This document shows, piece after piece, positions 7,772 to 44,978 of a stretch of DNA of 44,978 bases. Within the stretch, counting starts at the first letter, position 1. Each line of letters opens with the position of its first letter. A program made the translations under genes and the position numbers. Below the pieces are notes generated by a model. It had not been told where the DNA came from. It saw only the letters and a program-made list of their open reading frames with translations, and made no database searches. The stretch comes from Candidatus Polarisedimenticolia bacterium (GTDB lineage Bacteria; Acidobacteriota; Polarisedimenticolia; Gp22-AA2; AA152). The stretch spans positions 1 to 44,978 of the forward strand of contig DASTZC010000031.1 of assembly GCA_035764505.1 (NCBI GenBank). The letters are read 5' to 3'.

Positions 7772-7804
7772 GGGGGCAGGCCCGTGCCTGCCTCCTTTGT
7801 TTTT
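7772..7804 (+). terminator. Intrinsic terminator after the receiver gene
   Basis: A 10-bp stem (7772-7781 with 7786-7795, one G-U pair) has a CCGT loop and is followed by a T-rich run, TTTGTTTTT, at 7796-7804. It lies between the receiver gene stop and valS, so it separates the two transcription units. It is the clearest intrinsic terminator in the window. Confidence 0.85.
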
Positions 7805-7847
7805 CGGGAGCATCGCCGCGCGGGCATGCTCCTCAGGAGTGCCACGC

Positions 7848-10529
7848 ATGGAAGTCCCGAAGCGCTTCGATCCGGCGGAGGTGGAGGGCCGTTGGAGCGC
7901 CCACTGGCTTGCCTCGGGCTACTTCACTCCCGATCCGTCTTCCCAGTCGGAGCCTTTCTGCATCGTCATCCCGCCGCCCAACATCACGGGAAGGCTGCAC
8001 GCCGGCCACGCGCTCAACAATACTTTGCAGGACGTTCTGGTGCGCTGGCGCCGCATGCAGGGGAGGAACACGCTGTGGCTTCCGGGGACCGACCATGCCG
8101 GGATCGCGACGCAGATGGTGGTCGAGCGCGAGCTGCAGAAGGAGGGGACGAGCCGGCACGTGCTGGGCCGCGAGGCGTTCCAGAAGCGCGTGTGGGCCTG
8201 GAAGGAGGAGCACGGCAGCGCCATTGTCGAGCAGCTGAAGCGGCTGGGGGCCTCCTGTGACTGGAGCCGCCTGCGGTTCACCCTCGACGAGGGGCTCTCC
8301 GTCGCGGTGCGCGAGGTCTTCGTGCGCCTGTACGAAGAGGGGCTCATCTACCGCGACAAGGCAATCGTCAACTGGTGCCCGAGCTGCCGGACGGCGCTGT
8401 CGGACCTGGAGGTGGTGCACAAGGAGGTCACCGGCAAGCTCTATTCGATTCGCTATCCGCTCAAGGAAGGCAACGGATCAATCACGGTGGCGACGACCCG
8501 GCCCGAAACGATGCTGGGGGACACGGCGGTGGCGGTGCATCCGGCCGACGAGCGCTACGCGGCGCTGGTCGGGAAGAATGCGGTCCTGCCGATCCTGGGA
8601 CGGGAGCTGCCGATCGTCGCCGACGACGCGGTGGATGCCGCCTTCGGCACCGGGGCGGTGAAGGTCACCCCGGCGCACGATCCGAACGACTTCGCCATCG
8701 GCCGGCGGCATGGCCTCCCCGCAGTGCGCATCATGGACGAGGCGGCGAAGATGAGCTCCGAGGCCGGGCCGTACGCCGGATTGGATCGCTATGCCTGCCG
8801 CAAGAAGCTGCTGGCCGATCTGGAGGCGTCAGGCTACCTCGTGAAAATCGAGGAGCACCGGCACGCGGTGGGCCGCTGCGATCGCAGCGACACGGTGGTC
8901 GAGCCGACGCTGTCGGACCAGTGGTTCGTCCGCATGGAGCCGCTCGCCTCGGAAGCGCTGCGCGCCGTGGAGGACGGCAGGGTGCGCTTCGTTCCCGAGA
9001 ACCGCCGCAACGACTACTACGAGTGGATGCGCAACATCCACGACTGGTGCATCTCCCGCCAGCTCTGGTGGGGCCACCGCATCCCGGCCTGGCATTGCGC
9101 CCGCTGCGCGCACATCACCGTGTCGCGCGACACGCCGGCGGCGTGCGCCTCCTGCGGAGCCGCGCATCCGGTGCAGGATGCGGACGTCCTCGATACCTGG
9201 TTCAGCTCGGCACTGTGGCCCTTCTCCACCCTGGGATGGCCCGACACCGCAGCTGCCGATTTGCGGCGCTTCTATCCCACCTCGGTCCTGGTGACGGGCT
9301 ACGACATCCTGTTCTTCTGGGTGGCCCGCATGATCATGATGGGGTTGAAGTTCATGGGCGAGGTCCCGTTTCCGCAGGTCTACTTCAACGGCCTGGTGCG
9401 CGACGACAAGGGCCGCAAGATGAGCAAGACGCGCGGTAACACCGTCGATCCCCTGGAGCTGATGGAGCGGCACGGGACCGACGCGCTGCGCTTCACGCTG
9501 GCCGCCATGTCCTCCCCGGGCGCCGACGTCCTGCTCGACCTCAAGCGGGTGGAAGGGTACCAGGCGTTCGCCAACAAGATCTGGAATGCGGCGCGCTTTA
9601 CCCTGATGAACCTGGACCCCGCGATGCCTCCCTCGGAGCCGCGCTTCCGCGCCGCTGGCAAGGGTCTGCCGCTGGCGGACCGCTGGATCATCAGCCGGGT
9701 CAACGGCGTCGCGGCGGAAGTCGATGCCGCCTTGGAGGAGTTCCGCTTCGACGCGGCGGCGACGGCGCTGCACCGCTTCTTCTGGCACGAGTTCTGCGAC
9801 TGGTACCTCGAGATGGTGAAGCCGGCACTCCTCGGAAGCGACGCGGAGGCGGCGCGGACGGCGCGCAGCGTCCTGCTGCGCACCCTGGACCGGGCGCTGC
9901 GGCTGCTGCACCCGTTCATGCCTTTCCTGACCGAGGAAATCTGGCAGAGGCTGCCTCACCAGGGCGACTCCCTGGTGGTGGCGCAATTTCCCGTCCATCG
10001 GCCCGAAGAGCACGACGAGGAAGCGGAGCGCGAGATGCAGTTCCTGATGGCGGCCGTGGGCAAGCTGCGCAACCTGCGCGCCGAGGCGGAGCTCGATCCG
10101 GGCCGCAAGGTGGAGGCCTTGTTCAAGACGGAATTGGCCTACCCGCGGCGGCTCCTCGAGGAGCATGCGTCGACCGTGGCCTCGCTGGCGCGGCTGTCGG
10201 GCACGCGCTTCGTGGACGAGATACCCAGGGATGCCGCGGCGGTGCGCGGGGTGGTCACGGGGCTGGAGATGGCGCTCCTGCTTCCCCAGGAGCGCGACAC
10301 CGGCGAGGAGCGCGGCCGGCTGAGCCGCGAGATGGAGAAGATCGACCGGGAGATCGCCGCGCTGGAGGCCAAGCTGGCCAACGATAGTTTCGTGTCACGT
10401 GCCCCCGCCGCAATCGTCGAGAAGGTGCGCTCCTCCCGGACCGAGCTGGCCGGAAAGCGGGACAAGCTCGAGCAGACGCTGGCCGCGCTCTCCGATCCGG
10501 ATGCCTCAACCCGCGCCGGAAAACCGTGA
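7848..10529 (+). CDS. valS: Valyl-tRNA synthetase
   Basis: The 893-residue class I synthetase charges tRNA-Val and edits mischarged threonine. It has the HIGH-type motif HAGH at 51-54 (PPPNITGRLHAGHALNN), the CP1 editing domain (TTRPETMLGDTAVAVHP), a WISRQLWWGHRIP stretch, the KMSKS-type loop KMSKT at 524-528 and a C-terminal coiled coil (RGRLSREMEKIDREIAAL) that binds the tRNA. The ATG at 7848 gives the family start; an in-frame upstream start would run through the terminator at 7772-7804. It heads a run of genes joined by GTGA overlaps (nadC, birA, coaX and an unknown gene). Confidence 0.98.
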   Translation: MEVPKRFDPAEVEGRWSAHWLASGYFTPDPSSQSEPFCIVIPPPNITGRLHAGHALNNTLQDVLVRWRRMQGRNTLWLPGTDHAGIATQMVVERELQKEGTSRHVLGREAFQKRVWAWKEEHGSAIVEQLKRLGASCDWSRLRFTLDEGLSVAVREVFVRLYEEGLIYRDKAIVNWCPSCRTALSDLEVVHKEVTGKLYSIRYPLKEGNGSITVATTRPETMLGDTAVAVHPADERYAALVGKNAVLPILGRELPIVADDAVDAAFGTGAVKVTPAHDPNDFAIGRRHGLPAVRIMDEAAKMSSEAGPYAGLDRYACRKKLLADLEASGYLVKIEEHRHAVGRCDRSDTVVEPTLSDQWFVRMEPLASEALRAVEDGRVRFVPENRRNDYYEWMRNIHDWCISRQLWWGHRIPAWHCARCAHITVSRDTPAACASCGAAHPVQDADVLDTWFSSALWPFSTLGWPDTAAADLRRFYPTSVLVTGYDILFFWVARMIMMGLKFMGEVPFPQVYFNGLVRDDKGRKMSKTRGNTVDPLELMERHGTDALRFTLAAMSSPGADVLLDLKRVEGYQAFANKIWNAARFTLMNLDPAMPPSEPRFRAAGKGLPLADRWIISRVNGVAAEVDAALEEFRFDAAATALHRFFWHEFCDWYLEMVKPALLGSDAEAARTARSVLLRTLDRALRLLHPFMPFLTEEIWQRLPHQGDSLVVAQFPVHRPEEHDEEAEREMQFLMAAVGKLRNLRAEAELDPGRKVEALFKTELAYPRRLLEEHASTVASLARLSGTRFVDEIPRDAAAVRGVVTGLEMALLLPQERDTGEERGRLSREMEKIDREIAALEAKLANDSFVSRAPAAIVEKVRSSRTELAGKRDKLEQTLAALSDPDASTRAGKP

Positions 10530-11389
10530 CCGGCGGAGTGCGCCTATCCGCCCTGCGGCAGGAGCAGGGAAGGCTGGTGCGCGAGGCGCTGCGGGAGGAT
10601 CTGGGTTCGGGAGACCGGACCACCCTGTCCGTCGTGCCGAAAGCGCAACGCGCCGTGGGGACCATTCGCGCGAAGCAGCCGCTGGTGCTCGCGGGAATCG
10701 AGTTCGCCCACGAGGCCTTCCGCCGCGTCGATCCCACCCTGCGCTTCACCCCGGTGCGGCGCGACGGCAGCAGAGTGCGGCGCGGTGAGACGGTCGCCCG
10801 GGTGCGCGGCCGCGCCGCGTCGATCCTGCGGGCCGAGCGCACGGCCCTCAATTTCCTGCAGCACCTCTCCGGCATCGCCACCTACACCGATCGCTGCGTC
10901 CGCGCCGCCCGCGGGCGATGTGCCGTCCGCGACACGCGCAAGACCCATCCCGGCCTCCGCCTGGCCGAGAAGTACGCGGTGCGGGTGGGAGGAGGCGAGA
11001 ACCACCGGCTTCGTCTGGACGACGGCATTTTGATCAAGCACAATCACTGGAGAGTCGGAGGCGGTGTGGGTGCCGCGGTGCGCCGCGCCGGCCGCGGTGG
11101 TGTCGGGCGCCGCCCACCCATCCAGGTCGAGGTTTCATCGCTGCGCGATCTGCGGGAGGCGATCGTATCGGGAGCCGATTCCGTGCTCCTGGACAACCTG
11201 TCGGGGCGCGCTCTCAACCGAGCGCTCGCCGTCGCCCGGGGGCGAATCCATGTGGAAATCTCGGGAGGAGTGACGGCGGAAAACGTGCGGCGCCTGTCGA
11301 GTCTGGGAGCCGACGCGGTATCCTCCGGTGCTTTGACCCACTCGGCGCCCTGGGCCGATCTGTCGCTGCGCCTGGAGCCTTTGCCGTGA
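10526..11389 (+). CDS. nadC: Nicotinate-nucleotide pyrophosphorylase (carboxylating), quinolinate phosphoribosyltransferase
   Basis: The 287-residue enzyme converts quinolinate and PRPP to nicotinate mononucleotide in de novo NAD synthesis. Diagnostic stretches are LREDLGSGDRTT at the N-terminus, RAERTALNFLQHLSGIAT, RDTRKTHPGLRLAEKYAV and GGGENHRLRLDDGILIKHNH, with the C-terminal barrel ends EVSS, VLLDN and EISGGV. It starts with GTG inside the valS stop (GTGA), indicating translational coupling. A Gly/Arg-rich insert (about 172-192) between IKHNH and the EVSS strand is longer and more basic than I expect. nadA and nadB are not in the window. Confidence 0.97.
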   Translation: MTGGVRLSALRQEQGRLVREALREDLGSGDRTTLSVVPKAQRAVGTIRAKQPLVLAGIEFAHEAFRRVDPTLRFTPVRRDGSRVRRGETVARVRGRAASILRAERTALNFLQHLSGIATYTDRCVRAARGRCAVRDTRKTHPGLRLAEKYAVRVGGGENHRLRLDDGILIKHNHWRVGGGVGAAVRRAGRGGVGRRPPIQVEVSSLRDLREAIVSGADSVLLDNLSGRALNRALAVARGRIHVEISGGVTAENVRRLSSLGADAVSSGALTHSAPWADLSLRLEPLP

Positions 11390-12174
11390 GCATGCCGGAG
11401 ATACCTGCCTTGTTTCCAGCACCCCGCCGGTTCGGAAAGCCGCTGCACCGCTACGATGCGCTCGAATCGACCAACGACAAAGCGCTCGAGCTCCTCGAGA
11501 GCGGAGCTGCGGAAGGCACGCTCGTACTGGCCGAGGAGCAGACCCGGGGCCGCGGACGGCGCGATCGCTTCTGGCACTCGCCCGCGGGAGTCAGCCTCTA
11601 CGCGAGCCTGATTCTTCGCCCGCCGCTGCCTGCGAGCCTGCTTCCCCTCGTGTCTCTTACGGCCGCGACGGGGGCGGCCCGGGCGCTCGCCGAATGGGGC
11701 CAGCTCCCCGGAGTGGCCATCAAGTGGCCCAACGATCTCCTTTTCCGGGGCCGCAAGCTCGGTGGAATCCTGGCGGAGGCTCGCGGAGAAGCGGGCGCTG
11801 CGGCGCTTGTCGTGGGCATCGGCATGAACGTCAACCTGGTTGAGTTTCCCGCCGAGATGGAAGGGGAAGCCACCTCGCTGCGGCTCTCCGGCGGCCATGT
11901 CTGGGACCGGGAGGCGCTGCTGGGCGCGATCCTGGCTTTCTGGGAGGCCGATTACGATCGTCTCCTCTCATCCGGTCCGGCGACGCTGCTGGAGGCGATG
12001 CTGGAGCGGTCGGCCCATCCGCCCGGCAGCCCGCTGCAAATCGACCTCGGGGACGAGATCCTGAGCGGTACCTTCGCCGGCTACGGCAGCTCCGGGGAGC
12101 TGCTCCTGCAGGAAGCGGACGGGAGCGTGCGGCCGCTGCACTTCGGAGAGATCCGCCGCATGAGGATGCCGTGA
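11386..12174 (+). CDS. birA: Biotin--[acetyl-CoA-carboxylase] ligase
   Basis: The 262-residue protein attaches biotin to carboxyl carrier proteins through biotinyl-AMP. It has the STND motif at the start of the catalytic domain (YDALESTNDKALEL), the adenylate-binding loop GRGRRDRFW (residues 55-63; the usual form is GRGRRGR) and KWPNDLLFRGRKLGGIL, followed by the C-terminal SH3-like domain. It lacks the N-terminal helix-turn-helix of E. coli BirA, so it is a monofunctional ligase, not a repressor. The GTG at 11386 was chosen because GGAG lies 8 bases upstream and it repeats the operon's GTGA overlap; the ATG two codons later (11392) is the alternative. Confidence 0.95.
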   Translation: MSMPEIPALFPAPRRFGKPLHRYDALESTNDKALELLESGAAEGTLVLAEEQTRGRGRRDRFWHSPAGVSLYASLILRPPLPASLLPLVSLTAATGAARALAEWGQLPGVAIKWPNDLLFRGRKLGGILAEARGEAGAAALVVGIGMNVNLVEFPAEMEGEATSLRLSGGHVWDREALLGAILAFWEADYDRLLSSGPATLLEAMLERSAHPPGSPLQIDLGDEILSGTFAGYGSSGELLLQEADGSVRPLHFGEIRRMRMP

Positions 12175-35363: not shown

Positions 35364-35443
35364 ATTCGATGGAGTAACACCGGGCACCCCGGGACGGGCA
35401 AGACCTGGGGGCCTTTGAAGCAATGAAGGAGGATTCGAAACGC

Positions 35444-37270
35444 ATGGATTTGCAAAGGGATTTTGACCAGGACGACTTCCCGCCCGCGGGAGCAAGCAGG
35501 CCCACACGACAGGCTCCCCGGCCCAAGCTGGAAGGCACCGAGGCCGCCGGGGCCGAGATGGACCGGGCCGAGTACGAGCAGCTCCTGGGCCTGTACGACG
35601 ACAGCTTCAGGAACCTGGCGGAAGGGGAAGTGGTCAAGGGGAAAGTCCTGCGCATCCTCCCCAACGAAGTCGTGGTCGATGTCGGCTACAAGTCCGAAGG
35701 CCTGATCGACATCGAGGAGTTCACCGACCTCAGCGGCAAGATCCATGTCGAGGTGGGCGACGTGATCGACGTTCTCCTGGAGAAGACGGAGAACCAGGAA
35801 GGCTACGTCGTCCTCTCCAAGGAAAAAGCCGAGAAGATGAAGATCTGGGAGGAGGTCGAGCAGGCCTACAACGAAGGGAAGATCGTCCGCGGCGTCGTCA
35901 AGGAGCGGATCAAGGGGGGCCTCGCGGTCGACATCGGCGTGCGTGCTTTCCTTCCGGGCTCCCTGGTCGACATGCGCCCGGTGAGGAACCTCGACGCCCT
36001 GCGCGGCAAGGAGCTGCGCATGCGGGTCATCAAGGTGAATCGCAAGCGCGGCAATATCGTCCTGTCCCGCAAGGCGGTCCTCGAGGAGGAGAACCAGGAG
36101 AAGAAAAAGAAGACCCTGGCGCTGCTCGAGGAGGGGAAAATCCTCAAGGGCATCGTCAAGAACATCACCGAGTACGGGGCCTTCATCGACCTGGGCGGCA
36201 TCGACGGCCTCCTGCACAAGACCGACATGTCGTGGGGCCGCGTGAACCATCCTTCCGAGCTCTTCGTGGTGGGCGACGAGGTCGAGGTGGTAGTCCTCAA
36301 GTTCGACCCGGAGCGGGAGCGCGTGTCGCTGGGCTACAAGCAGAAGAGCACCGACCCCTGGCAGCGCGTCTCGGAGAAGTACTCCAAGAACTCGCGCGTG
36401 CGTGGCAAGGTGGTGAGCCTCACCGACTACGGCGCCTTCGTCGAACTGGAGGAGGGTGTCGAAGGCCTGATCCATGTCTCGGAAATGTCCTGGACGAAGC
36501 GGATCAAGCACCCCTCCAAGGTCCTGGCGGTGGGGGACACGGTGGAAGCGGTCGTGCTCGACGTCGACCAGGAGGCACGCCGGCTGTCGTTGGGCCTGCG
36601 TCAGACCGAGCCCAATCCCTGGGACGTCATTGCCGACAAGTACCACGTTGGCGACAAGATCACGGGCAAGGTCCGCAACCTCACCGACTTCGGCGCTTTC
36701 GTCGAGGTGGAAGAAGGGATCGACGGCCTGGTGCACATCTCCGATCTCTCATGGACCCGGCGCCTGCGGCATCCTTCCGAGATGCTCAAGAAGGGGGACA
36801 CGGTCGAGGCGGTGATCCTCAAGATCGATTCCGAGAACCAGCGGCTTTCCCTCGGCATCAAGCAGTTGTCGCCGAACATCTGGGACGAGTTCTTCCGCCT
36901 GCGCTCGGTGAACGACGTGGTCACCGGCAAGGTGGTCCGGCTGACCGACTTCGGCGCCTTCCTGGAGATCGAGGATGGGATCGAAGGGCTCATCCACGTC
37001 TCCGAGCTCTCGGAGGAGCGGGTCGAGCAGCCGAAGGACGTCCTCTCGGTCGGTGACGTGGTCAAGGCGAAAATCATCAAGATGGAGCCCGCCGAGCAGA
37101 AGATCGGCCTGTCTCTGAAGGCGGTCGCGCAGGATCTGACCGCCGAAGAGCTGCGCGCGTATCAGGAGCGCTCGGCTCAGGACTCGGGCAGCACACTGGG
37201 AGATGCCCTGCGGAACTCCCAATTCCTGGAGGCGGAGAATTCCGACAACGCCGATGGCGACGACAACTGA
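35444..37270 (+). CDS. rpsA: 30S ribosomal protein S1, six S1 domains
   Basis: The 608-residue protein binds mRNA and the ribosome and helps initiate translation. Six S1 (OB) repeats are visible, each with a form of GKVVRLTDFGAFVEL and GLIHVSELSW; the first begins near residue 62 (GEVVKGKVLRILPNEVVVDV). The acidic start (MDLQRDFDQDDFPPAG) precedes them. I chose the ATG at 35444 because AAGGAGG at 35426-35432 lies upstream of it (11-base spacing, somewhat long); the ATG at 35423 would place that site inside the gene. Followed by an IHF/HU gene, as in E. coli rpsA-ihfB. Confidence 0.95.
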   Translation: MDLQRDFDQDDFPPAGASRPTRQAPRPKLEGTEAAGAEMDRAEYEQLLGLYDDSFRNLAEGEVVKGKVLRILPNEVVVDVGYKSEGLIDIEEFTDLSGKIHVEVGDVIDVLLEKTENQEGYVVLSKEKAEKMKIWEEVEQAYNEGKIVRGVVKERIKGGLAVDIGVRAFLPGSLVDMRPVRNLDALRGKELRMRVIKVNRKRGNIVLSRKAVLEEENQEKKKKTLALLEEGKILKGIVKNITEYGAFIDLGGIDGLLHKTDMSWGRVNHPSELFVVGDEVEVVVLKFDPERERVSLGYKQKSTDPWQRVSEKYSKNSRVRGKVVSLTDYGAFVELEEGVEGLIHVSEMSWTKRIKHPSKVLAVGDTVEAVVLDVDQEARRLSLGLRQTEPNPWDVIADKYHVGDKITGKVRNLTDFGAFVEVEEGIDGLVHISDLSWTRRLRHPSEMLKKGDTVEAVILKIDSENQRLSLGIKQLSPNIWDEFFRLRSVNDVVTGKVVRLTDFGAFLEIEDGIEGLIHVSELSEERVEQPKDVLSVGDVVKAKIIKMEPAEQKIGLSLKAVAQDLTAEELRAYQERSAQDSGSTLGDALRNSQFLEAENSDNADGDDN

Positions 37271-37307
37271 TCGGACGATGAATCGCCGCGAGGAGGGGCC
37301 CCAGGCC

Positions 37308-37601
37308 ATGACCAAGGCGGAGCTTGTCGAGGAGGTAGCCCGCGTCGCCGAGCTCACCAAGAAGCACTCCGAGGTGATCGTGAACACCGTCTTCGACTCG
37401 ATCATCGAGGCCCTGCAGAAGGACGAGAAGATCGAGCTGCGGGGATTCGGAAGCTTCAGGATTCGGCAGCGGCGCTCCCGCCAGGGGAGGAACCCGAAGA
37501 CAGGCGACAAGGTCGACGTCCCGGCGAAGAAGATTCCGTACTTCAAGCCCGGCAAGGAGCTCAAGGAGCTGATCAACTCCGACTCCCAGCCCGAGCCCTG
37601 A
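37308..37601 (+). CDS. HU/IHF-family DNA-binding protein
   Basis: The 97-residue protein carries the HU/IHF signature GFGSFRIRQRRSRQGRNPKTG, with the intercalating proline in NPKTG, and the conserved FKPGKELKE near the end. Position after rpsA matches ihfB (himD) in proteobacteria, so it may be IHF-like. AGGAGGGG lies about 10 bases before the ATG at 37308; an earlier ATG at 37278 would add ten residues that are not family-like. It differs clearly from the HU at 17198. Confidence 0.93.
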   Translation: MTKAELVEEVARVAELTKKHSEVIVNTVFDSIIEALQKDEKIELRGFGSFRIRQRRSRQGRNPKTGDKVDVPAKKIPYFKPGKELKELINSDSQPEP

Positions 37602-37610
37602 TCCGCTCCG

Positions 37611-38144
37611 ATGCGCAACCTGTTCACGCCCTGGCGCTACGCCTATCTCGCCGGCGGCGGGCGCAGCCGGCGCTGTGTGTTCTGCAAGGCGCGTGACTCC
37701 AGGGACGACCGCTCCGAGCTGGTGGTACACCGCGGCCGCTACAACTTCGTCATCCTGAACCGCTATCCCTACAACAGCGGGCATCTGATGATTGCCCCGA
37801 ACGAGCACCTGTCGAGCCTGGCGCGGAGCTCGCCGGCCCAGCTGCGCGAGATGATGATGCTGGCGGCGCGCTGCGAGCGCGCGCTCCGGCGCATCTATCG
37901 CATGGACGGGCTGAACCTGGGGATGAACCTGGGAGAGAGCGCCGGGGCCGGCATCCTGGGTCATTTCCATCTCCATCTCGTGCCGCGGTGGAAAGGGGAC
38001 ACCAACTTCATGACGGTGGTGGGCTCGACGCGCGTCACTCCCGAGCTGCTGCAGGACACCTTCCAGAAAGTCCGCACGCAGCTCCGCCGGCCGCTGAAGC
38101 CCGGCTCGAAGCCGGCTCGGACCCTGCGCCGGAAGGCATCCTAG
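37611..38144 (+). CDS. HIT family hydrolase (diadenosine polyphosphate type)
   Basis: The 177-residue protein has the histidine triad His118-x-His120-x-His122 in LGHFHLHLVPRW, and an N-terminal CVFC (Cys22, Cys25) that probably binds zinc with a later histidine. Family members hydrolyse nucleoside phosphates such as Ap4A or adenosine phosphoramidates. The C-terminus is basic (RRPLKPGSKPARTLRRKAS). It starts 9 bases after the HU/IHF gene and ends 4 bases before miaB, so all are in one operon. Confidence 0.93.
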   Translation: MRNLFTPWRYAYLAGGGRSRRCVFCKARDSRDDRSELVVHRGRYNFVILNRYPYNSGHLMIAPNEHLSSLARSSPAQLREMMMLAARCERALRRIYRMDGLNLGMNLGESAGAGILGHFHLHLVPRWKGDTNFMTVVGSTRVTPELLQDTFQKVRTQLRRPLKPGSKPARTLRRKAS

Positions 38145-38148
38145 GCCG

Positions 38149-39465
38149 ATGCGCTACTTCATCCAGACCTGGGGATGCCAGATGAATTTCCACGATTCCG
38201 AGAAGCTTGCCGGAATCCTCGAGGAGCAGGGCTGCGTGCCGGCCGGCCGACTGCCCGACGCCGACGTGCTGCTACTGAACACCTGCAGCATCCGGGAGAA
38301 GGCGGCGGAGAAGGTCTTCTCGCACCTCGGGGCGCTGCGGCCGCTGCGGGAGCAACGCCCCGATCTCATCATCGGGCTGTGCGGCTGCGTCGCCCAGCAG
38401 GAAGGGGAGCGGCTGTTCCGGCGCAGCGATTTGGTCGATTTCATCCTCGGCCCGCGGGCCATCGAGTCTCTTCCTGCCCTCTTGAGGGAAGCGGCGCAGC
38501 GCCGGCGCCCCCGGCTCGCCGACCTCGCCGTGCGCGACGACAGCATCCGCTTCGACGGCGCGCGAGCACGTCGCGCTGTGGGGCCTCGCGCTTATCTGAC
38601 CATCATGGAAGGATGCAACAAGACCTGCACCTACTGCATCGTGCCGACGACCCGCGGCAGGGAAGTCAGCAAGCCGGTGAGCCAGGTCCTGGAAGAGGCG
38701 GCCGCGCTGGAGCAGGCCGGCTTCGTGGAGATCGAGCTGCTGGGCCAGAACGTCAATGCCTATCGTGACGGCTCCTTTCACCTGGATGGTCTGCTGCGTC
38801 TTCTGCAGCCCCTGGAGGGGATAAAACGTCTGCGCTTCACCACCTCCCACCCGGCCCATCTCAGCACCGCCATCATTCGCGCCATGGCGGAGTGCCCGAG
38901 CGTCTGCCACGCGCTGCACCTGCCGTCCCAATCGGGCTCCGACGCGGTCCTCGAGCGGATGCGCCGCGGCTACACCCGCCGGCGCTACCTCGACCGGATC
39001 GAGACGCTGCGGCGATGGATTCCGGACCTCGGTCTTTCCACCGACATCATCGTCGGCTATCCGGGGGAATCGCGCGCCGAGTTCGAGGAAAGCCTTTCCC
39101 TGCTGCGCGAGGTGGAGTTCGACCAGGTCTACTCTTTTCTCTACTCGCCGCGGCCCGGAACGGACGCCGCCCAGGAGCAGGAGAGCCTGTCGTTCGCGGA
39201 GAAGAACGCTCGCCTGGCGGAGCTGCAGGCGATGCAGCAGGAAATCCAGCTGCGGCGCAACCGGCTTCATGTCGGAAGCGAGGCGGACGTGCTCGTGGAC
39301 GGGGTGTCGCGCATGGGGGGCAAGCTGAAAGGCCGCACCGGGGCGAACCGGGTCGTGAACTTCGAGGGCGAAGAGTCCTGGATCGGCTCCACCGTGCAGG
39401 TCCGGATCACGGCGGCGGGGCCCAACTCCCTGGAAGCACGCCGGATCCGCGTCGCCGGGTCTTGA
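38149..39465 (+). CDS. miaB: tRNA-2-methylthio-N6-dimethylallyladenosine synthase
   Basis: The 438-residue radical-SAM enzyme adds a methylthio group to i6A37 of tRNA. The N-terminal auxiliary cluster cysteines are Cys10 (QTWGCQMN), Cys46 (LNTCSIRE) and Cys80 (GLCGCVAQ). The radical-SAM cluster is Cys156, Cys160 and Cys163 in GCNKTCTYCIVP, followed by TRGREVSK and STDIIVGYPGES. The C-terminal TRAM domain is at about 375-438. QMN after the first Cys favours MiaB over MtaB or RimO. Confidence 0.97.
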   Translation: MRYFIQTWGCQMNFHDSEKLAGILEEQGCVPAGRLPDADVLLLNTCSIREKAAEKVFSHLGALRPLREQRPDLIIGLCGCVAQQEGERLFRRSDLVDFILGPRAIESLPALLREAAQRRRPRLADLAVRDDSIRFDGARARRAVGPRAYLTIMEGCNKTCTYCIVPTTRGREVSKPVSQVLEEAAALEQAGFVEIELLGQNVNAYRDGSFHLDGLLRLLQPLEGIKRLRFTTSHPAHLSTAIIRAMAECPSVCHALHLPSQSGSDAVLERMRRGYTRRRYLDRIETLRRWIPDLGLSTDIIVGYPGESRAEFEESLSLLREVEFDQVYSFLYSPRPGTDAAQEQESLSFAEKNARLAELQAMQQEIQLRRNRLHVGSEADVLVDGVSRMGGKLKGRTGANRVVNFEGEESWIGSTVQVRITAAGPNSLEARRIRVAGS

Positions 39466-39490
39466 CTTGCCCGTAGTTGAAGGTTATAAG
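39462..39490 (+). promoter_or_regulatory. Promoter of the DUF151 gene
   Basis: TTGACT (39462-39467) overlaps the miaB stop codon; TATAAG (39485-39490) follows after 17 bases. The leader is about 18 bases, with AGGAG 5 bases before the GTG at 39515. Confidence 0.6.
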
Positions 39491-39514
39491 TGGGGCGCAA
39501 TTTCAGGAGAGACC

Positions 39515-40000
39515 GTGGAAGTGGAAATGAAGATTAAGGGTCTGATGATCGACCCTATCAGCAACATGCCGATCATCATTCTCCGCGATCCGAAGACGAG
39601 CGCCGTGCTTCCGATTTGGGTCGGCATCTTCGAAGCCAATGCCATCGCCCTCCAGATCGAGAAAATCGCGACCCCCAGGCCCATGACCCATGATCTCCTC
39701 AAGAACATCCTGACCGGCATGCAGGCCTCGGTGGAGAAGATCGTGATCACCGAGCTCAAGGACAACACGTTCTACGCGCTGGTCTACCTGCGGCACGGCG
39801 ACCGACAGTTGTCGATCGACTCGCGGCCCTCGGATGCGATCGCGCTCGCGCTGCGGACCGAGTCTCCCATCTTCGTGGAGAGCGAGGTGATCGAGAAGGC
39901 GAAGAACGCAGAGCTCACCAAGGACGCAGGAGAGTCGGAGCGGATCCGCAAATGGCTGGAGAACCTGGACCCGGAGGAGCTCGGCAAGTACGAGATGTAG
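39515..40000 (+). CDS. Bifunctional nuclease family protein (DUF151)
   Basis: The 161-residue protein matches the DUF151/BFN family (KGLMIDPISNMPIIILRD, LPIWVGIFEANAIALQ, RPMTHDLLKNIL and SRPSDAIALALR). Some members have DNase/RNase activity, but the role in most bacteria is not known. The GTG at 39515 was chosen because AGGAG is 5 bases upstream; ATG at 39527 or a longer upstream frame are alternatives. DUF151 next to miaB is a common neighbour pair. Confidence 0.9.
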   Translation: MEVEMKIKGLMIDPISNMPIIILRDPKTSAVLPIWVGIFEANAIALQIEKIATPRPMTHDLLKNILTGMQASVEKIVITELKDNTFYALVYLRHGDRQLSIDSRPSDAIALALRTESPIFVESEVIEKAKNAELTKDAGESERIRKWLENLDPEELGKYEM

Positions 40001-40103: not shown

Positions 40104-40859
40104 ATGATTCTGGCCATCGCCAATCAGAAGGGCGGAGTCGGGAAGACCACCACCGCCATCAATCTCGCAGCAGCCCTGGCTCACAAGAAATATAAGACGC
40201 TCCTGATAGATCTCGATCCCCAGGGGAACTGCACTCTCTGTTTCGTCGATCACCAGCAAATCGGCACGACGGTGTACGAGGCCTTGACGGAGCCGGGATT
40301 GAGCCTCAAGGAGGCCATCCATCCGACGCAGACGGCGAACCTCGAGGTAGTTCCATCGCGCATCACGCTCGCGAAATTCGAGAGCAAGATGATTGGGGAG
40401 CTGGACAGTCACTTCCGCATGAAGGATCGGATCGCATCGGTGCAGAAGCAGTATGACTACGTCATCATCGATTGTCCGCCGACGTTGGGGCTGCTGACGG
40501 TGAACGCCCTGGTGGCGGCGAGCCACCTGCTCGTACCGATCCAGTCCTCCTACTTCGCGCTCGAGGGGACAGACGATCTTCTGGAGACGGTGGAGAAGAT
40601 CAAGGCCCGCCCGAACCCGGGGCTGGAGTTCCTCGGCGTGGTCATCACGCTGCACGACAAGCGCACGGTCCTCGGAAGGGATATCAAGAGCCACATCAAG
40701 GAAGTCTTCGGGAACAAAGTGTTCAAGACGATCATCAGCCGCAGCGTGCGGCTCGAGGAAAGTCCCGCTTACAAGGAATCGATCTTCACTTATTCTCCTA
40801 ATTCGACCGGCGCGTTGGAATATTACCGGCTTTCTGAAGAGGTCATCGGACGTGTCTAA
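40104..40859 (+). CDS. parA: Chromosome/plasmid partitioning ATPase ParA (Soj)
   Basis: The 251-residue Walker ATPase has the deviant Walker A KGGVGKTT (9-16, with the signature lysine), LIDLDPQGNCT, VIIDCPPTLGLLTVNAL and SRSVRLEESPAY. It has no N-terminal helix-turn-helix, as in chromosomal and type Ib ParA. It moves ParB-parS complexes. parB overlaps its end by 8 bases. Confidence 0.96.
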   Translation: MILAIANQKGGVGKTTTAINLAAALAHKKYKTLLIDLDPQGNCTLCFVDHQQIGTTVYEALTEPGLSLKEAIHPTQTANLEVVPSRITLAKFESKMIGELDSHFRMKDRIASVQKQYDYVIIDCPPTLGLLTVNALVAASHLLVPIQSSYFALEGTDDLLETVEKIKARPNPGLEFLGVVITLHDKRTVLGRDIKSHIKEVFGNKVFKTIISRSVRLEESPAYKESIFTYSPNSTGALEYYRLSEEVIGRV

Positions 40860-41694
40860 CAGCAAGAATCGCGGTCTGCCTCTCGAGAAACGCATGCGCC
40901 ATGACCACCACTTCGTCGACAGCCTGAGCCGGGGAGCCCTGGCTCCCATCGGAAGGATGATCTCCCTCGAGCAGATCGACACGATTCCGGACCAGCCCCG
41001 ACGGCAGATGGGAGACTTGAAGGACCTGGTTGCCTCGATCAAGGAGAAGGGAGTGCTCGAGCCGATCCTGGTGCGTCGCAACGGACCGCGCTTCCGGATA
41101 ATCGCCGGAGAGCGCCGGTACCGCGCCTCGCGCGAGGCTGGCCTGACGCAGATCCCGTGCATCGAGCTGGAGGTGGACGACAAAGGAACGCTGGAGATCT
41201 CCCTGATCGAGAATTTGCAGCGCAGAGACCTGAGCGCTTTCGAAGAAGCGCATGGCATCAAACAGCTGATCGACCGGTTCCTCTACACCCACGAAGAGGT
41301 TTCGCGCCGGCTCGCAAAGTCGCGCTCGGCAATCACCGAGATCCTGAGCCTGACCCAGATTCCCGAGGAGGTGATGGAGTATTGCCAGGAATACGGTATC
41401 AGCTCGCGATCGCATCTTCTCGCGATCGCCCATCAACCTGACGTGGACACGATGCTGGCTCTTGCAGAGCAGATTCGGACTCAGAACCTGACCCGGGAGG
41501 ACGTGCGCAAGCTGAAGAACCCGTCGACCGAGGAAGGAAAGCGGGGGAGGCCGAAGCACTTCGTGTTCCGGTATCGGGCACAGGACCGTCGCTTCGCTTT
41601 CAGCCTCAGGTTCAGCAAATCAGAAGTTTCCCGGGACGAAATCATTCACACGCTGCGCGAGCTCCTTCAGAACCTCGAGGCCGAAGCCAACTAG
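40852..41694 (+). CDS. parB: Partitioning protein ParB (Spo0J family)
   Basis: The 280-residue protein has the ParB/Srx CTP-binding domain (LEQIDTIPDQPRRQM, IKEKGVLEPILVRR, IIAGERRYRASREAG, ISLIENLQRRDLSAFEEA). The central helix-turn-helix follows: YTHEEVSRRLAKSRSAITE. The C-terminus (RAQDRRFAFSLRFSKSEVSR to LLQNLEAEAN) is shorter and differs from the usual leucine-rich dimer domain. The GTG at 40852 overlaps parA. No perfect parS site is seen nearby. The layout is chromosomal, but placement at origin or terminus cannot be judged. Confidence 0.94.
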   Translation: MSNSKNRGLPLEKRMRHDHHFVDSLSRGALAPIGRMISLEQIDTIPDQPRRQMGDLKDLVASIKEKGVLEPILVRRNGPRFRIIAGERRYRASREAGLTQIPCIELEVDDKGTLEISLIENLQRRDLSAFEEAHGIKQLIDRFLYTHEEVSRRLAKSRSAITEILSLTQIPEEVMEYCQEYGISSRSHLLAIAHQPDVDTMLALAEQIRTQNLTREDVRKLKNPSTEEGKRGRPKHFVFRYRAQDRRFAFSLRFSKSEVSRDEIIHTLRELLQNLEAEAN

Positions 41695-42314: not shown

Positions 42315-42336
42315 AAATGTCGGCCGGCCGACATTT
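42315..42336. repeat. Perfect 22-bp palindrome
   Basis: The left half AAATGTCGGCC is followed directly by its exact reverse complement, with no loop bases. A T (TTTT with the last arm bases) follows. It is too symmetric to be a normal terminator and may be an operator or a resolution/attachment site. Confidence 0.6.
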
Positions 42337-42613: not shown

Positions 42614-42641
42614 AGTTTACATAAGATTTCTTATCGGACAT
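42614..42641 (-). other. dif-like XerC/XerD recombination site
   Basis: Read on the minus strand this is an 11-base arm ATGTCCGATAA, a 6-base centre GAAATC and an 11-base arm TTATGTAAACT. The second arm is identical to the XerD-side arm of Bacillus subtilis dif as I recall it, and 9 of 11 match the E. coli arm TTATGTTAAAT. The first arm keeps the ATAA next to the centre and is otherwise variable, as XerC-side arms usually are. The 11-6-11 layout is the standard. It lies in non-coding DNA 117 bases before lptF. No xer gene is in the window. Confidence 0.55.
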
Positions 42642-42758: not shown

Positions 42759-44978
42759 ATGTTCCGACTGTATCGCTACATCTTCCGGGATCTTGCCTCT
42801 CCGACCGTTTTGGGTCTGCTCATCTACACCTTCGTCCTCCTGATGAACGCTATCTTCGACGTGGCGGAATTCGCCATCAAGAAGGACTTGCCGATCACCG
42901 CGGTCCTCAAGATCCTGGCTCTTTCCTTGCCGCAGTTCCTGACTCTGACCATTCCGATGTCGGTGCTTCTCGGTGTGCTCATCGGAGTAGGCCGGCTCTC
43001 CGCCGACAGCGAGATCATCGCCATGCGGGCCTGCGGGATTGGCTACTGGAAGGTCGTGATTCCGGTCATGACCCTGGGCCTGGTGGGATGGGCGATTTGC
43101 AGCTCGCTGCTCATATGGATCGAGCCGGAGGCCGATTATCTGCGCCATCGCCTCGGATCACGCCTCGTCCTTAAATCCGACCTCCGCAAAGAGCTGAAGT
43201 CGCGCACCCTCTTCGAAGAGATTCCGGGAATGCTGCTTTACGCCGACAAGGTCTATAGCGGCGGGAGCAGCCTGGAGCGGGTCATCCTGTCGCAGTCCGA
43301 TCCGCAGGGGCGGGACCTGCTGACCACCGCGCGCCGGGGTCGCCTCGATTACGACACGGGCACCGGGAGGTTGCGGCTGTTTCTCGAGGATGGCGTGACG
43401 CACCGAACCAATCCGTCCGATCCCCTCGACTACCAGGTTTACGGAGCCGATCGACAAATGGCCCTACGTGAGCCCGACAGCGGGTTCAAGCTCAGGACCC
43501 GCCTCTTGAAAGAGCCCCAGCAGAAGAACTATCGGGAGCAATCGCTGCAGGAGCTCAGGGAGTCATGGGCCAAGGCCGGCGCTCTCGAGCACATCCCGAC
43601 GCGGGACCGGCTGAGAGCGTCAATCGATGTGGTGTGGCATGAGCGCTTCGCCTTGCCGGTCGCCTGCCTGGTGTTCAGCTTCGTCGGCTTCCCGCTCGGC
43701 ATCTACAACCGCCGGGGCGGAAAATCCTCCGGCATCGCGATCAGCCTGGGAGTCGTGCTGGTCTACTGGCTCATTCTGACGACCGGTGAGCAGCTGGCCA
43801 CCGAAAACAAGCTTCCTCCCCTCGTGGCGCTGTGGACCGGAAACCTGGTGTTCGTCATCTTCGGAGTCCTGCTGCTGCGGCGCAAAGAGAAGCAGGAAAC
43901 GGGGATGGAAGGAAGCGGATGGATTGGTCGAAGCTACGCCGCCGGACGAAAAGTGCGAGTGGCAGTGGCCGGGGTCCTGAAGCGGAGAGGATCCGGTGGG
44001 ACGGAGGGCGGTACGGAGCCAATCGACCCGGAACCGCGGCGGAAATACTCGGGGGGTCCTGCCTTCTCCACGCTGCTCGACCGATACGTCCTGCGCAGCT
44101 ATCTCAGGTTCCTCCTCATGACCGGGCTATCGATCTACGTCATCTTTCTGGTGGTCGACTTCCGCGAGCTGATCGACGACGTGATCAACAGCCGTGTCCC
44201 CGGGACACTGGTCCTGAATTTCTTCAAGTATCGATCTCCGTGGATCATCGGTCAGATACTGCCGGTGGCCTGCCTCGTCTCGACCCTGCTGGCCTTCGGC
44301 GTGCTTTCCCGGTTCAACGAGATCACCGCCATGAAGGCAGGCGGGCTGAGCCTTTACCGCATCTCGCTCCCCGTCCTCGGCGCCACGATCGTGGTCTCAA
44401 CTTTCGCCTTCGGCCTGCAAGGCTACGTCATGCCTTTCTCGAATCAGCGCGCCAGCCAGCTGCGCGACCAGATTCGCGGCAAGGTCAGCCGCAGCTATTC
44501 CCAGCCCCAAAAGCGCTGGGTGCAGGGGACCGACGGAGTTTTCTATTCGTACCGCAGCTTCCAGAAGACCTCTCCCGGCCTGGTGCCGCTCACCACGGAA
44601 GGGGTGTTCCAGGGATTCAGCATCCTGCGCCTGGATCCGGAGACCTATCAGGTGCTGTCCCGGGTCTATGCGCGCGAAGCCCAATTCGTGGATGGGTCGT
44701 GGATGCTGCGCAGCGGCTGGGAGCGCGGCTTCGATGAGGGGGGTCACATCACCTCCTTCGACGAGTTCAAGGAGAAGGCTTATCCCTTACCGATCAATCC
44801 GAGCCGCTTCATGGGGGACACACGAACCCCTGACCAGATGAGCTATACGCAGCTGCGGGAATTCATCGAGGACCTGCGCCGGCGAGGCTACTCGGTCCAG
44901 GAGCTGATGGTGGACCTGCATGAAAAGGTGGCGATGCCCTTCGTTTCCTTCGTGATGGTCGTCCTGGGACTCCCGTTC
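42759..44978 (+). CDS. LptF-LptG fusion permease of the LPS exporter (3' end outside window)
   Basis: The frame is open from ATG 42759 to the window edge: 740 codons with no stop. Residues 1 to about 385 are LptF (RLYRYIFRDLASPTVLGLLI, IPMSVLLGVLIGVGRLSADSE, FALPVACLVFSFVGFPLGIY, with the beta-jellyroll between the membrane segments). A basic/Gly-rich linker of about 50 residues follows. From about 439 (LLDRYVLRSYLRFLLMTG) a second copy, LptG-like, starts with ILPVACLVSTLLAFGVLSRF and runs to the window end in its C-terminal membrane region. LptF and LptG are normally two proteins that with LptB2 extract lipopolysaccharide from the inner membrane. Here they are one polypeptide. Confidence 0.9.
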   Translation, partial: MFRLYRYIFRDLASPTVLGLLIYTFVLLMNAIFDVAEFAIKKDLPITAVLKILALSLPQFLTLTIPMSVLLGVLIGVGRLSADSEIIAMRACGIGYWKVVIPVMTLGLVGWAICSSLLIWIEPEADYLRHRLGSRLVLKSDLRKELKSRTLFEEIPGMLLYADKVYSGGSSLERVILSQSDPQGRDLLTTARRGRLDYDTGTGRLRLFLEDGVTHRTNPSDPLDYQVYGADRQMALREPDSGFKLRTRLLKEPQQKNYREQSLQELRESWAKAGALEHIPTRDRLRASIDVVWHERFALPVACLVFSFVGFPLGIYNRRGGKSSGIAISLGVVLVYWLILTTGEQLATENKLPPLVALWTGNLVFVIFGVLLLRRKEKQETGMEGSGWIGRSYAAGRKVRVAVAGVLKRRGSGGTEGGTEPIDPEPRRKYSGGPAFSTLLDRYVLRSYLRFLLMTGLSIYVIFLVVDFRELIDDVINSRVPGTLVLNFFKYRSPWIIGQILPVACLVSTLLAFGVLSRFNEITAMKAGGLSLYRISLPVLGATIVVSTFAFGLQGYVMPFSNQRASQLRDQIRGKVSRSYSQPQKRWVQGTDGVFYSYRSFQKTSPGLVPLTTEGVFQGFSILRLDPETYQVLSRVYAREAQFVDGSWMLRSGWERGFDEGGHITSFDEFKEKAYPLPINPSRFMGDTRTPDQMSYTQLREFIEDLRRRGYSVQELMVDLHEKVAMPFVSFVMVVLGLPF

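Follow-up and report, generated by a model that had tools for sequence, protein, structure and literature searches.

The analysed stretch of 44,978 nucleotides (hereafter the window) represents one entire contig, C31, of a MAG of 4.46 Mb in 288 contigs. On its forward strand it encodes a ParA-type ATPase (parA-ter, 40104–40859, 251 aa) with a KGGVGKT Walker A motif (Pfam AAA_31, 5e-59; CbiA, 9e-27), followed by a ParB protein (parB-ter, 40852–41694, 280 aa) whose reading frame overlaps that of parA-ter by 8 bp. ParB-ter consists of an N-terminal CTPase-type domain and an HTH domain (Pfam ParB_N, 5e-26; HTH_ParB, 3e-17) and matched the ParB structure 7bnk of the PDB with 4e-49 in a profile search. 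As is characteristic of ParABS systems, a ParA ATPase and a CTPase/HTH ParB thus share one operon and are accompanied by local palindromes that are candidates for parS. The candidate of the window, which we term parS-ter, is a perfect 20-bp palindrome, AATGTCGGCCGGCCGACATT, at 42316–42335 with the core TGTCGGCNNGCCGACA at 42318–42333. The locus is flanked on the left by a conserved set of forward genes (35423–40000) for S1-domain, HU-like, HIT and MiaB-like proteins and a bifunctional nuclease (BFN), assigned by Pfam and by synteny in 21 genomes, and on the right by a fused lptF-lptG permease gene on the same strand (42759–44978, open at the contig end; Pfam LptF_LptG in two stretches, 7e-141), a neighbor that is conserved within the class. 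The fusion of lptF and lptG forms a single frame of about 800 codons, and its family (F2) occurs in 21 genomes. The genes scpA and scpB for condensin subunits are found about 8 kb upstream of dif in the class of the window (loci L037–L056).

Between the end of parB-ter at 41694 and the start of lptF at 42759, the reverse strand carries at 42614–42641 a 28-bp element composed of the XerC arm ATGTCCGATAA, the centre GAAATC and the XerD arm TTATGTAAACT, which bears out the dif-like 11-6-11 layout in non-coding DNA described in the original prediction. The window contains one match to dif at up to three mismatches, with none expected in shuffled windows. A genome-wide count of dif sites had been proposed, and the search of the window's own genome returned a single match at up to two mismatches and none for the reversed control. 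Among 60 relatives, 44 share the site, almost always as a single copy, contrary to the lack of conservation that had been named as an argument against it. Within the class the two arms are constant (AYGTCCGATAA and TTATGTNAACT) and the central 6 bp vary; this combination of conserved arms and variable centre is the signature of a functional dif. Matches to the XerD family were obtained in G000 and in all six complete relatives. The element is the chromosomal dif, and it is predicted from its sequence to be recombined by XerCD. A chance match in AT-rich DNA, one of the readings offered before, was rejected on the basis of the shuffled windows, the uniqueness in the whole genome and the conservation in relatives. 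The proposal that the site is the scar or entry point of an element using XerCD was likewise abandoned as either excluded or unsupported: dif is single, no second dif or genes of such an element were found, and the neighbors are chromosomal genes. In eight loci (L039 of genome G003, L061, L064, L067, L071, L078, L087 and L088) dif has the opposite orientation with respect to parB-ter and keeps its position.

In complete chromosomes of relatives, the distance of dif from dnaA corresponds to 47.6% of the circle in G021 (5.985 Mb), 48.4% in G227, 49.5% in G270, 50.2% in G165 and 56.9% in G122, and parB-ter and dif are separated by 0.15–0.8 kb in these five genomes. The GC skew of G021 changes sign at dif (Mann-Whitney p 0.001, 20 sampled stretches), and a weaker trend is seen in G227 (p 0.02). 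Beyond lptFG, the genes of both flanks are oriented towards dif. Since the genome of the window is a MAG of 288 contigs, its terminus position is taken from these complete relatives, from which we infer that the dif of the window is likewise the terminus site; the suggestion that it might be something other than the chromosomal dif is thus not tenable for a site that is single, conserved and located opposite dnaA in the relatives. In G107, G126 and G152, Chloracidobacterium-like genomes by their two-chromosome layout, parB-ter lies at 49–56% of chromosome I, and parAB-ter and parS-ter are situated near the terminus of this chromosome. No dif was recognized near parAB-ter on chromosome I of G107. 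The second chromosome of G107 (L208, contig C2) contains a dif-like site in the middle of the replicon, around 533 kb of 1.0 Mb.

A parAB locus usually marks the origin region, and the original prediction had therefore considered the vicinity of dif unexpected. It had offered three readings, of which the lack of origin linkage of parAB proved correct and the non-chromosomal dif and the chance match did not; a conserved ParABS at the terminus had not been foreseen. Nearly every member of the class encodes two ParB proteins, one at about 7–27 kb from dnaA and a second adjacent to dif, and clusters of the canonical parS TGTTNCACGTGNAACA are found near dnaA in the complete genomes. We accordingly rejected that parAB is the origin system of a rearranged chromosome, as this place is taken by the other ParB with its canonical parS. 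The parAB of the window is not origin-proximal and shows neither parS TGTTNCACGTGNAACA nor the contact residues of a canonical origin ParABS. Of the roughly 34 class genomes in which both parB-ter and dif were found, 30 have them close together on one contig, and in the remaining four or so a contig break between them is present or likely. In a tree of 79 ParB sequences, the terminus ParBs form a single clade with 100/100 support; neither the origin ParBs from their own genomes nor any ParB from another phylum groups with them, and the branching order inside the clade tracks taxonomy. A profile of the terminus ParB applied to the genomes of 84,980 species recovered at least 67 loci in Acidobacteriota sensu lato (with Aminicenantes), including a few records with another or no phylum label; the matches listed below these were exclusively ordinary ParBs from other phyla. 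Among 294 Acidobacteriota genomes sampled, most families have ParB-ter, and family f18 and several others possess the origin ParB only. The parAB of the window is hence a second ParABS that is distinct from the origin parAB and lies beside the terminus over much of Acidobacteriota.

For ParB, the residues Q162, N178, G201 and R204 have been identified as parS-contact positions, and R173 and G201 are absolutely conserved in orthologs (PMC7383237). In ParB-ter, Q162 is substituted by histidine, N178 by glutamate, G201 by lysine or arginine and R204 by leucine; R173 and the CTP-pocket motifs GERRYxA and ENLQR are retained. Since contact residues are altered, a changed DNA specificity is expected. 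In this respect ParB-ter resembles Noc, a ParB-fold paralog with switched DNA specificity and a basic residue at position 201. In contrast to Noc, it has Arg173, His162 and Glu178, a ParA partner and sites at the terminus; the combination of Q173/R201 with K179/K184 and no ParA partner that defines Noc was not found. Noc sites avoid the terminus.

The exact core of parS-ter is present in most genomes of the class, usually once and at the parAB-dif locus, where three kinds of placement occur: in the gap between parB and dif, within parB, or upstream of parA. Complete or near-complete genomes contain one to eight copies, all within about 50 kb at the terminus. G021 and G122 each have one copy and G227 and G270 two, exclusively at the terminus, G107 has four within 40 kb of parB-ter, and G199 has eight within 14 kb. 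No exact copy was detected in three genomes without ParB-ter, and the reversed control gave almost always zero. Where parS-ter lies inside parB-ter it encodes CR(Q/R)ADI, and the codons TGT CGG x GCC GAC are used in all of 12 genomes from several families, most of which use TGT as the minority cysteine codon; a probability product calculated from this codon freeze overstates its significance because the 12 genomes are related. The fixation of codons inside parB implies that parS-ter is conserved as a DNA site and not as a protein motif. In the order to which the window belongs, parS-ter has left parB and now lies between parB and dif. ParB-ter is predicted to bind the palindrome TGTCGGCNNGCCGACA as a centromere-like site. 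An exact parS-ter within 3 kb was observed in 38 of the 67 loci among the matches listed. It was absent from the loci of Terriglobia and Pyrinomonadaceae, and a search for exact 7-2-7 palindromes in the Terriglobia, Pyrinomonadaceae and f47 loci yielded no common motif. In Pyrinomonadaceae-type loci parS-ter may have changed in sequence. Loci of this type with parAB-ter beside dif and no exact parS-ter are L096, L100, L109, L112, L114, L118 and L121. In the 10-Mb genome G199 (L203, contig C15), six of the eight parS-ter copies are clustered in about 370 bp upstream of parA-ter (7803–8169).

The association of the module with dif was followed across lineages. A strong dif lies 21–993 bp (median 97) downstream of parB-ter in 43 of the 67 loci among the matches listed; for comparison, the 1.07 Mb of these loci yielded one strong dif at another place, and 1.01 Mb of control DNA yielded two. 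Loci of the Terriglobia type and some of Blastocatellia possess parAB-ter with no recognized dif nearby, and a divergent dif, which we sought in the profile-negative loci, was convincing in L086 only (about 2.2 kb). In Aminicenantes, parS-ter, parA, parB and dif are retained, and the miaB-bfn and lptFG flanks of the class were not found at these loci. In L094, miaB has been relocated and inverted with the module intact; in Pyrinomonadaceae the flanks are altered and the module is again intact; and in L204, the unit of parA-ter, parB-ter and dif has been turned round between lptFG on one side and bfn-miaB on the other. Part of the conserved neighborhood is plain inherited synteny; the linkage of parAB and dif exceeds it.

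With a probability of roughly 60%, we consider parA-ter, parB-ter and the palindrome to constitute a complete second ParABS (ParABS-ter) that is dedicated to the terminus, its role in segregation being deduced from the sequences. ParB-ter dimers would load at parS-ter as CTP clamps and then, like other ParBs that form such clamps, slide across the few hundred bases that separate it from dif and continue beyond, so that a partition complex would be built on each sister terminus. Late in the cell cycle, ParA-ter may then hold, align or separate these complexes, by which the dif sites would be positioned for XerCD/FtsK and the termini subsequently moved apart; an effect on condensin or on XerD at dif could be included. 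The wider proposal, to which we give even odds, is that these chromosomes carry two separately evolved, complete centromere systems, one at the origin and the other at dif. The latter would be an ancestral trait of Acidobacteriota and would, in concert with XerCD, actively segregate or align the sister termini, such that the last-replicated region would be partitioned by a ParA and not only by FtsK/MatP-type functions.

ParB-ter could alternatively be mainly a terminus organizer of the MatP kind or a condensin loader or regulator that, from parS-ter, marks the terminus and influences SMC or XerD at dif instead of working through ParA-driven partition, with ParA-ter as an accessory. The main observation in its favor comes from lineage f47, in which parA-ter has been lost and parB-ter is still located beside dif (G165 and G117); ParA is hence not always needed, which suggests that a ParA-independent role of ParB-ter is possible. 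The ParB-ter of G165 additionally lacks the N-terminal GLP region, the usual ParA contact site of ParB. Also in line with such a role are the proximity of scpA/scpB in the class of the window and of xerD in several lineages. The xerD gene lies no more than 5 kb away from the module in G227, G122 and G270, and its distance to parB-ter is 0.8 kb in G107; this proximity is also in keeping with ParABS-ter. Moreover, processive SMCs have been reported to unload near the terminus of B. subtilis, and XerCD/dif has been discussed in the context of SMC distribution (review PMC8242196). This alternative nonetheless appears unlikely to us, as every lineage examined outside f47 keeps parA-ter overlapping or adjoining parB-ter, and the parS-ter sites are few and local compared to the many matS sites of a macrodomain. 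The loss of parA-ter from its place between bfn and parB-ter can be seen in L194 (G165, 10188–11616) and in L195 (G117).

Mobile elements using XerCD are known to insert at dif, and ParABS systems are typical of plasmids. An ancient partition system of a plasmid or second replicon may thus have been integrated at dif via XerCD and been inherited since, possibly as a mere passenger now, and the distinct parS and ParB clade agree with such a descent. We regard this as rather improbable, since the conserved module comes without genes for replication, mobilization or an integrase, the ParB-ter tree tracks taxonomy through the classes, parS-ter is conserved base for base despite its shifting position, and dif is single-copy. 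Taken as a story of origin, it is compatible with the explanation as ParABS-ter. That dif is simply inherited beside an ordinary gene block, the linkage being functionally meaningless, accords with the class-wide conservation of some ten genes as a block around dif but is highly improbable, because the flanks differ between classes, miaB or bfn have been moved or inverted, parAB-dif was inverted as a unit between its flanks in L204, and the orientation of dif flips in G003 and seven further loci at constant position.

ParABS is understood as the segregation machinery of origins or plasmids, and a partial literature search that included few subscription papers returned no description of a ParABS linked to the terminus or to dif. 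ParABS-ter shares with the chromosomal systems of the Spo0J/Soj type the KGGVGKT ParA, the CTPase-type and HTH domains of ParB and a palindromic 16-mer that often lies inside parB, but it is located beside dif at the terminus instead of near oriC, has TGTCGGCNNGCCGACA in place of TGTTNCACGTGNAACA and coexists with the origin ParABS on one chromosome. A separate ParB clade and an own parS for each system are also known from the ParABS of secondary chromosomes and plasmids, whereas here both systems reside on one replicon. As in the case of MatP/matS of E. coli, a dedicated DNA-binding protein would mark the terminus around dif. The MatP fold, however, is unrelated to ParB-ter, which is of the ParB type by sequence; matS sites are many and spread over the Ter macrodomain, whereas ParABS-ter includes an ATPase and has only one to eight sites within about 50 kb. 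If a dedicated ParABS with its own parS is indeed locked to dif throughout most of a phylum, some bacteria would actively partition the region replicated last as well as the one replicated first. ParABS-ter would then provide a testable handle on the positioning of the terminus and its handover to XerCD, as well as a natural case of ParB specificity divergence inside one genome.

In comparison to known XerCD/dif systems, the dif of the window has the same 28-bp 11-6-11 organization, is single and terminal and is accompanied by encoded XerD-like recombinases; it differs by its physical linkage with a partition locus and, in relatives, often with xerD. A xerD gene was noted at a distance of no more than a few kb from the module in L189 (11604–12458), L198 (4478–5344), L197, L199 and about 17 other loci, and it adjoins parB-ter in the genomes that are Chloracidobacterium-like by their two-chromosome layout.
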